Part shown: one piece after another, positions 50,832-54,363 of the stretch
Numbering within the stretch: the first letter of the stretch is position 1
How the letters are laid out: the number at the start of each line of letters is the position of its first letter
Source of the DNA: Asaia bogorensis
Lineage (GTDB): Bacteria; Pseudomonadota; Alphaproteobacteria; Reyranellales; Reyranellaceae
Reading direction: 5' to 3'
Assembly: GCA_945905835.1 (NCBI GenBank)
Contig: CAMDQJ010000004.1
Span: 1 to 64,000 of the forward strand
Length of the DNA: 64,000 nucleotides
The notes under the pieces: generated by a model
The model's input: only the letters and a program-made list of their open reading frames with translations
Told to the model about the DNA's origin: nothing
Databases searched by the model: none
Translations under genes and position numbers: made by a program

Positions 50832-52142
50832 TCAGCGTGCGAGACTGGACTTTACGCCGCGCCAGAGCGCTGTTGTGTCCGCACCTCCGGGATCGCGGGC
50901 ATCGGGTCGGACCGCAAGATGTACGAGCACGAGTCGGCGTGCCGGATCGACGAAGATGCACTGCCCGCGAACGCCCAGCAGGGCGAAGCTCCCGTCGTTG
51001 TCGGGGAAAACCCAGGTTTGGAAGCCGTAACCGTACCAACGGCCAGTCTGCGCGCCCGAGAAATGCGCGCCCGTCATCTCCTGAAGCCAAACTTCAGGTA
51101 CAAGCTGGCGCCCTCCGGCACGACCTCCGTCGGCGAGCAGCCTGCCGAGCCGAGCGTAGTCGCGCAGAACTGCGTTAAACCCCGTATAGCCGACTTCAGT
51201 CCCCGTAGCCTCGACCAGCCAGGTAGCGTCTGCCTCAGCACCCATCGGCTGCCATATCTTCTCGGATAGATAGTCGGCGATCGGTCGGCCAATCGCCGCG
51301 CGCAGGACCAGTGCGATCACATAGGTCTCCGCCGAAGCGTAGTGCCAGCGCCGGCCCGGCTCAGCCCCGCGCCGGTTAAACAGCCGCGCCGCCTCGGCAC
51401 CGCCTGAGGACTGACCAACGAAGGTTGCACGCGAGAGGCGCGAAGAGTCGTCTGTGCCGTCATAGTCCTCGCGGAAATCGACGCCAGACGACATCGTCAG
51501 GAGGTGACGCAGCGGTGTGCGGCCATACTCGCTACCAGCCAATCCGGGAACGTAAAGCTCAGCGTGGTCCTCGATCGAGGCGATGAGCCCTTCATCGACG
51601 GCGACCCCGACCAGCATCGCAAGGATGGTCTTCGCCATCGAGAAGGAGGTCATGCGGCTCGTGTCGCGGCGGCCGTAGCGGTAGCGCTCTACCAGGATGG
51701 CATCGCCCTGAACCACCGCAAGCGCCGTCGTCGGGTTACGCTTGAGATACTGGTCGATGTCGTAGCGCCCCGCGCCGACTTGGGGTGCGCCCTGATAGGA
51801 GATCGCCGGCTCCATCGCCGGGCGCTTCCAGGCGGAGGGCAATGGGGGGCGCCGGACGACATTCGCTCTCCAGATGTCGTCAAGACGCGAGAAGGAATCG
51901 ACCGAGTGGCTGGCGCGCCACCAGTTTGACCGGTCAGCGCGTGGGAAGCCGTTACTCCCCGGCGCAGAGTAAGTCGAGATATTTGCGCCGCCCGAGTCAA
52001 AAGCAGGCCCGCTGGTGCGCGGTGGCGAGGGGGGTTCGGTAGCCACGCATCCGACCGCCAGCAGCGACAGGCAAGCGGTACTTAGTAGCGCGACGTAGCC
52101 AACGCGGCGGCGCTTAAGGCTATTTTCGAGATTGTTGATCAT
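50832..52142 (-). CDS. Serine hydrolase of the beta-lactamase (class C/EstB/NylB-like) family
   Basis: A 436-residue exported hydrolase. LLSTACLSLLAVGC near residue 32 is a lipoprotein-type signal. The catalytic SxxK is SMAK in SFSMAKTILAML (about residue 167), and the second motif tyrosine lies in WHYASAETYV. The C-terminal LLGVRGQCIFVD and VLVHLAVRPD take the place of the third motif. Such proteins act as esterases, oligomer hydrolases (NylB-like) or D-amino-acid amidases more often than as beta-lactamases. GC is closer to the genome than for the membrane protein gene. It lies within the island. Confidence 0.82.
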   Translation of the reverse strand: MINNLENSLKRRRVGYVALLSTACLSLLAVGCVATEPPSPPRTSGPAFDSGGANISTYSAPGSNGFPRADRSNWWRASHSVDSFSRLDDIWRANVVRRPPLPSAWKRPAMEPAISYQGAPQVGAGRYDIDQYLKRNPTTALAVVQGDAILVERYRYGRRDTSRMTSFSMAKTILAMLVGVAVDEGLIASIEDHAELYVPGLAGSEYGRTPLRHLLTMSSGVDFREDYDGTDDSSRLSRATFVGQSSGGAEAARLFNRRGAEPGRRWHYASAETYVIALVLRAAIGRPIADYLSEKIWQPMGAEADATWLVEATGTEVGYTGFNAVLRDYARLGRLLADGGRAGGRQLVPEVWLQEMTGAHFSGAQTGRWYGYGFQTWVFPDNDGSFALLGVRGQCIFVDPARRLVLVHLAVRPDARDPGGADTTALWRGVKSSLAR

Positions 52143-52814: not shown

Positions 52815-52904
52815 TGGCGGAGGGGGTGGGATTCGAACCCACGGTACGCTTGCACGCACAACAGTTTTCGAGACTGTCCTAATCGACCACTCTAGCACCC
52901 CTCC
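52815..52904 (-). tRNA. tRNA-Ser(CGA)
   Basis: The minus strand folds as a class II tRNA. The acceptor stem is GGAGGGG/CCCCTCC with discriminator G and an encoded CCA. The anticodon loop is CTCGAAA, closed by ACAGT/ACTGT, giving anticodon CGA (reads UCG). A long variable arm TGCGTGCAAGCGTAC follows, and the T arm contains GGTTCGAATCC. It marks the right edge of the IS-rich stretch, a common place for island integration. Confidence 0.95.
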
Positions 52905-53000: not shown

Positions 53001-53857
53001 ATGACACCGGAAACCGCCCCGCCCGCGATCTCGGTCATCATGCTGACCTACAATCGCTCCGAGCGTCGGCGCAGCCATCGCCCACGACGATCAGCTCCCA
53101 ATCGGTGCTGCACCGATGTCGTCGGCGCCCTCGTCGCCGCCGATCGGCGCATCCGCTTCGTCGATTTGCCGCACAATACCGGCGAGCAGTCGGCCACCAA
53201 CAATATCGGGCTGAAGCATGCGCGCGGCCGCTACATCGCCTTCCTCAACCACGACGATCTCTGGCTGCTCGATCATCTCGAACGGTCTTCCGCAATCATC
53301 GAGCGAAGGCAGGCCGACCTCATCTACAGCCTGCCGATGACCGTCGCCTACGACGATGGCCGGGTGCATTTCCATCCCATCAACGGGCAGTTCGAGTACC
53401 ATCCGATGTAGCTCGTGCCGGCGAGCTACTAGCTCCTGCGACGCTCGTTGCTCGACGAGGTCGGAACGTGGCGACCGGCGCGGGGCATCTGGGGATACCA
53501 CTCGCAGGAGTTGCTGTACCGCTGGTGGCGCGCCGATTGCCGGCTCTACGGCAATCCCGAATTGACCTGCCTTGCCTTTCCCTCCGGAAATCGACCCGGC
53601 GCGACGAGCTGGATTTCCGGGAAAAGCTGCTCATCCAGATGGTGATGACCCAGGGGCGGATAGACGATCGCTTCTGGCGTCCGGCGTGGCGAGCGATCCG
53701 CGACGCGCTTCGCGTGCAATGGTTCGATTCTCTCTCCCACCACGGGATCGAGCCGCAGGCGGTGACCCATTTCCTGCGCTTCCGGCGCAAAGGCGGCTGG
53801 TTCGCCGAGCTGCGCGCCATCAGGGGGCTGCCGTCGCGCGACAAAAAGGGCGGCTAA
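53001..53857 (+). pseudogene. Family 2 glycosyltransferase with inversion, stops and frameshift
   Basis: ISVIMLTYNR opens a GT-A glycosyltransferase. RIRFVDLPHNTGEQSATNNI and GRYIAFLNHDDLWLLDHLE follow normally, but the segment between is nonsense in this strand. The reverse complement of about 53066-53111 reads STDWELIVVGDGCADA, exactly the block expected at this point, so a piece of about 50 bp is inverted and some adjoining sequence is lost. TAG codons follow at 53409 and 53430, and a one-base shift near 53590 moves RDELDFREKLLIQMVM to the C-terminus (RAIRGLPSRDKKGG) into another frame. Confidence 0.85.
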
Positions 53858-54063: not shown

Positions 54064-54363
54064 ATGATCGCCGTTATCCGCACGGGTGGAAAGCAATACA
54101 CGGTCGCCGCCGACGACACGCTCACCATCGAGCGCCTCGAGGGTGAGGCGGGCTCGAAGATCGAGTTCACCGACGTGCTGATGGTCGGCGAGAAGGTCGG
54201 CGCACCGACGGTTGCCGGCGCCAAGGTGCTGGCCTCGATCGTCAAGCAGGCGCGCGGCCCGCACGTCATCATCTTCAAGAAGCGCCGCCGGCAGAATTCG
54301 CGGCGCAAGAACGGTCATCGTCAGGATCTGACGGTGGTCAAGATCGAACAGATCGTCGCCTGA
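54064..54363 (+). CDS. rplU: 50S ribosomal protein L21
   Basis: A 99-residue ribosomal protein: [20 protein letters not shown] at the start and the basic [20 protein letters not shown] rRNA-binding loop near the end. ATG 54064 is chosen over the longer open frame because L21 proteins begin with this block. It is followed 26 nt later by rpmA in the universal L21-L27 arrangement. Confidence 0.97.

Follow-up and report, generated by a model that had tools for sequence, protein, structure and literature searches.

The tRNA-Ser(CGA)–rplU locus and its glycosyltransferase pseudogene

The window, the whole 64-kb stretch of DNA analysed here, lies on contig 4 of a 4.07-Mb draft genome in 185 contigs, whose gene content points to an alphaproteobacterium. 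The interrupted frame of a family 2 glycosyltransferase (GT2) gene stands between two anchors that are found in most congeners, a tRNA-Ser gene and, downstream of it, rplU. The features of the locus are as follows.

52815–52904, minus strand: tRNA-Ser (anticodon CGA), found by ARAGORN; left anchor, upstream of rplU in most congeners
53001–53857, plus strand: GT2 glycosyltransferase pseudogene, from Pfam PF00535, a homologue HMM and the interrupted frame
53001–53063, plus strand: left flank, uninverted, translated as MTPETAPPAISVIMLTYNRSE; the DNA match to the remnant in congener G024 stops at 53063
53063–53064: left breakpoint, with a deletion of about 42 bp (14 codons), from homologue spacing; G024 has 50 bp here
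53064–53103, minus strand: inverted core, reading DWELIVVGDGCAD on that strand, from the HMM and from 35 of 40 bases shared with G024 as reverse complement
53101–53117: near-palindrome ATCGGTGC-T-GCACCGAT, 17 bp with perfect 8-bp arms around one base, holding the right breakpoint
53118–53408, plus strand: right flank, uninverted, from VVGALVAADRRIRF to the first stop, matched by the HMM on this strand
53409–53411, plus strand: first in-frame TAG stop, from translation
53430–53432, plus strand: second in-frame TAG stop, from translation
53580–53600, plus strand: frameshift, approximate (near 53590), from comparison of the three forward frames
54064–54363, plus strand: rplU (ribosomal protein L21); conserved right anchor

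The decayed protein is still recognised by its family, as Glycosyltransferase family 2 (Pfam PF00535) matches 53001–53408 at 3e-10, with 40.7 bits against a cut-off of 23.3. Unlike intact PF00535 proteins, it has lost 14 codons, its GDGC-bearing block is encoded in inverted orientation, and downstream come stops and a frameshift; after the frameshift the C-terminal part continues in a different frame up to 53857. An uninterrupted GT2 frame with the GDxC/DDxS motif in place is absent, the motif lying on the wrong strand of a frame that carries two stops and one frameshift. Read from its sequence, 53001–53857 is a pseudogene and not a functional GT2 glycosyltransferase, and the two stops and the frameshift indicate relaxed selection on the gene. 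In agreement with the first-pass annotation, the open reading frames and frame translations place these lesions downstream of the inverted block, through which the frame stays open.

The region around 53001–53857 occurs once in the genome. With 4.07 Mb at 96.5% completeness, this genome is small beside the 5–6.5 Mb common in most congeners compared, a size that would fit gene loss in the lineage. Beside the tRNA gene, at 50832–52142 on the minus strand, lies the intact frame of a serine beta-lactamase-like hydrolase (PF00144, E 1.9e-29). Where tRNA-Ser(CGA) and rplU adjoin, the gap between them measures 184–440 bp in most congeners, and its content varies across the genus (loci L205–L226 and L257–L307). 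It holds the GT2 pseudogene in the window and a GT2 and a cupin-like remnant in G024; in about ten other congeners the gap spans about 1.5–2 kb, with a 419-residue open reading frame resembling a PLP-dependent decarboxylase or lyase in G022.

A conserved block on the opposite strand

On the plus strand, GT2 sequence runs up to TYNRSE (53063) and resumes from VVGALVAAD (53118), giving the order AISVIMLTYNRSE, about 19 residues unlike GT2, then VVGALVAADRRIRF; the translation across the block is AISVIMLTYNRSERRRSHRPRRSAPNRCCTDVVGALVAADRRIRF. The segment absent from this strand, TDWELIVVGDGCAD, is found on the minus strand, where the reverse complement of 53066–53111 reads STDWELIVVGDGCADA. Both observations, GT2 coding on either side and a DWEL-type block on the opposite strand, had been made in the first-pass annotation and stand. 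Homologues carry TYNRS at the same place, about 14 further residues and then DWELxVVGDxCTDDTEAVV; close homologues lacking a DWELIVVGDGC block here had been named as what would speak against an inversion.

An HMM built from 76 homologues, drawn from genomes of many phyla, matched both flanks on the plus strand (profile positions 2–16 and 41–189) and the minus strand at positions 31–48, inside the gap. Re-inversion and renewed comparison with GT2 proteins, as had been proposed, raised the score from 110.1 to 141.2 bits for 53063–53107, more than any other inversion tried in the region. Those that share its centre, from 53053–53117 to 53065–53105, all lay within 2 bits, while inversions in other parts of the gene gained at most 1.9 bits. 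Put through the same procedure, 40 shuffled blocks gained at most 12.0 bits, against 31.1 bits for the actual block. A short inversion within the GT2 gene is supported by these scores and by the congener remnant described below. By DNA comparison the inverted block comprises a core of 40 bp, and by protein comparison about 45 bp. The inversion proposed earlier holds up on both the HMM and the congener, but its size of roughly 50 bp comes down to about 40–45 bp, and a deletion of about 42 bp had been overlooked. In another reading, TGCACCGAT to the right of the junction would represent the ancestral C-T-D motif, so that the block is partly present twice; at 137.6 bits this scored just a few bits below the 141.2 of the simple reading, and it may yet apply.

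The deletion emerges from the spacing of the homologues, in which a stretch resembling xxLxxAIxSVLxQTxx makes the distance from TYNRS to DWEL about 14 residues longer than in the re-inverted sequence; at the homologous place, between the TYNRS side and the inverted block, G024 has 50 bp. About 42 bp are thus missing at the left junction, which makes the rearrangement an inversion plus a deletion, and the deletion abuts the inversion breakpoint exactly. Judged against G024, microhomology at this junction amounts to 0–1 nt. An 11-bp near-palindrome at the left breakpoint, CGCTCCGAGCG, was given no weight as a signal, its TCCGAG being ancestral according to G024.

The right breakpoint lies in a near-palindrome, as had been claimed, and the palindrome (53101–53117) proved longer than stated. 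Such palindromes are rare: the window contains seven (arms of at least 8, spacer of at most 3), and 0.3% of its positions are 5 bp or less away from one. The breakpoint itself is ambiguous and can be placed to 53104–53117 only. Because CACCGAT stands on both sides of the junction, the palindrome may predate the event or have been made by it. Inverted repeats of at least 6 bp bracketing the block were not found, and the 4-bp pair ATCG/CGAT at 53053 and 53114 is no more than chance would give.

An un-inverted GT2 remnant in congener G024

In one congener, G024 (locus L225), the tRNA-Ser/rplU gap of 675 bp holds a GT2 remnant in direct order, which reads VSVVMATYNRSELLPYSIGSIM, a frameshift, then PDWESIVVGDACTDDTVRVVGDLAAE, and which is both frameshifted and internally deleted. 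Its DNA matches the plus strand of the window up to exactly 53063, so the left breakpoint is placed at 53063|53064. Beyond this point, the reverse complement of 53064–53103 aligns directly with G024 at 35 of 40 identical bases; the alignment score is 55 as reverse complement and 20 in plus orientation, and the maximum in 20,000 shuffles was 33, none reaching 55. The un-inverted order thus exists at this locus within the genus. Downstream of the GT2 remnant, the same gap contains a frame reading PPGVWHAIVNIGAANALLINAASLPCD, with a cupin match that is weak (E 0.011) and falls short of the Pfam cut-off; it may be the tail of a sugar epimerase, and the site may once have carried a pair of surface-glycan genes.

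DNA similarity between the window and G024 is no higher than that between the window and the best distant homologue, and the proposed kinship of the two genes is based on their common site, not on identity. A quick tree of the rplU region does not make G024 and the species of the window sisters, and the GT2 gene may therefore reflect either early presence at the site with frequent loss or two gains at one site. The two nearest congeners by the same tree, G068 and G073, yielded no GT2 gene in the 4–8 kb examined upstream of rplU. No close orthologue turned up when the right part of the gene was searched as DNA against 40 relatives, or when a 177-residue protein was searched against 65 congeners. 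One plasmid record gave a weak match, the sole one of its kind, and viral contigs held distant GT2 proteins only. The search for an un-inverted allele in related genomes, suggested by the first-pass annotation, thus returned an un-inverted remnant at the same site but, across the 65 congeners, no close un-inverted allele.

Origin of the rearrangement and comparison with known systems

The best explanation, which we consider probable, is a single inter-strand template switch of type 1-3-2-4 in a decaying GT2 gene. Under the four-point model, an event of this class puts the reverse complement of the stretch from 3 to 2 in place of the longer region bounded by points 1 and 4 (PMC7954356). Two features of that class are present: by the HMM and G024 the segment occupies its old position as its own reverse complement, and the region replaced is longer than the inverted insert (by about 14 codons, or the 50 bp in G024). 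Starting from a GT2 gene between tRNA-Ser(CGA) and rplU, one local rearrangement would have turned the nearly 90 bp after the TYNRSE codons into the reverse complement of their last 40–45 bp, with about 42 bp lost and about 45 inverted. During DNA synthesis, the growing strand would have departed from its template after TYNRSE (point 1) and started again on the opposite strand, almost 90 bases further on (point 2). From there it would have copied 40–45 bases in reverse, as far as point 3, before rejoining its own template beside the departure site (point 4). The near-palindrome on the right would then either have been left by the return step or have existed beforehand and assisted it. In the encoded GT-A fold, the event deprives the protein of the second strand and of the GDxC motif. 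We infer both the unity of inversion and deletion and their replicative origin, as well as the direction of synthesis, for which the mirror image could equally apply. Points 1 and 2 are placed by a distant remnant, G024, and points 3 and 4 are ambiguous within 53104–53117; since no close un-inverted allele was found in 65 congeners, points 3 and 4 have no exact place and one event is not separated from two. Where the first-pass annotation had offered a template switch or a hairpin-mediated flip, the former fits inversion and deletion together; a simple hairpin flip is the poorer fit, since the block has no bracketing inverted repeats of at least 6 bp and the notable palindrome stands at the right breakpoint only.

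The leading alternative, to which we assign a clearly smaller but real likelihood, is that two separate events struck a gene no longer under selection: the inversion of a segment of about 45 or about 90 bp and, independently, the loss of about 42 bp. With at least three other lesions in the GT2 gene, and with the G024 remnant damaged in its own right, separate events are conceivable; yet the deletion meets the inversion breakpoint exactly, which a single event yields at no extra cost. An artefact, whether a chimera of whole-genome amplification or a misassembly, is improbable. The genome is a draft in 185 contigs, and the chimeras that amplification produces consist mostly of inverted sequence with a deletion in between, the same pattern as here (PMC1855051). 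However, the consensus would have to contain two switches within 50 bp that lead back to the original strand and register, this single-copy region has no bracketing repeat by which an assembler could be misled, and there is no indication that the DNA was amplified. Far less credible still is a programmed, reversible intragenic inversion (an inverton) acting as an on/off switch of the glycosyltransferase: surface-glycan genes are common inverton targets (PMC11892184) and the frame is open through the block, but a flip back would leave the 14 missing codons, two stops and the frameshift unrepaired, and the flanking inverted repeats expected of invertons are missing. A chance resemblance of the minus strand to the GT2 motif, judged not credible from the outset, can be dismissed on the shuffling results for both protein and DNA and on a minus-strand match that covers precisely those profile positions which the plus strand lacks.

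Taken with the template switch preferred here, the GT2-gene inversion is a clear case of an already known kind of mutation, in a pseudogene and with no sign of function. A microinversion is difficult to demonstrate, since a short reversed block is generally taken for a cluster of point mutations; this case is clear because protein conservation appears on the wrong strand and a congener has an un-inverted remnant in the corresponding position. By this example, genes decaying between conserved anchors, such as tRNA-Ser and rplU, could serve for counting template switches across bacterial genomes. Whether inversion, 42-bp deletion and 17-bp palindrome all came from one inter-strand switch is, in our estimate, evenly balanced. 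If they did, this would be a natural bacterial example of a complex (1-3-2-4) switch, one whose insert exceeds 40 bp and which survived because selection did not act on the gene; the natural events of such switches that we found in the literature come from primates and yeast.

Among known systems, invertons share with this locus inverted DNA in a gene of surface-glycan type, but are flanked by inverted repeats of 10–40 nt (PMC11892184); here there are no such repeats, no recombinase was recognised by inspection among the large neighbouring open reading frames, and reversal would not restore a working gene. Human–chimpanzee microinversions likewise copy a short block precisely as its reverse complement, yet they are pure inversions of 17–33 nt, all with flanking inverted repeats of 3–75 nt (PMC8755829). 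The block described here is 40–45 bp, comes with a deletion and lacks repeats of at least 6 bp at its two edges; its greater length and the lack of such repeats count against our best explanation, as does the scant microhomology of 0–1 nt at the left junction. Template switches associated with quasipalindromes in Escherichia coli (PMC7202029) are also bacterial and linked to hairpin-forming sequence, but turn imperfect inverted repeats into better ones, whereas here a whole block is inverted and a palindrome stands at one junction only. The short-range 1-3-2-4 switches of great ape genomes could be read against close ancestors, while here the ancestor is represented by a distant remnant only and the points are not exactly placeable; as in those events, a larger region has been replaced by its own shorter reverse complement, which would combine inversion and deletion in one event (PMC7954356).
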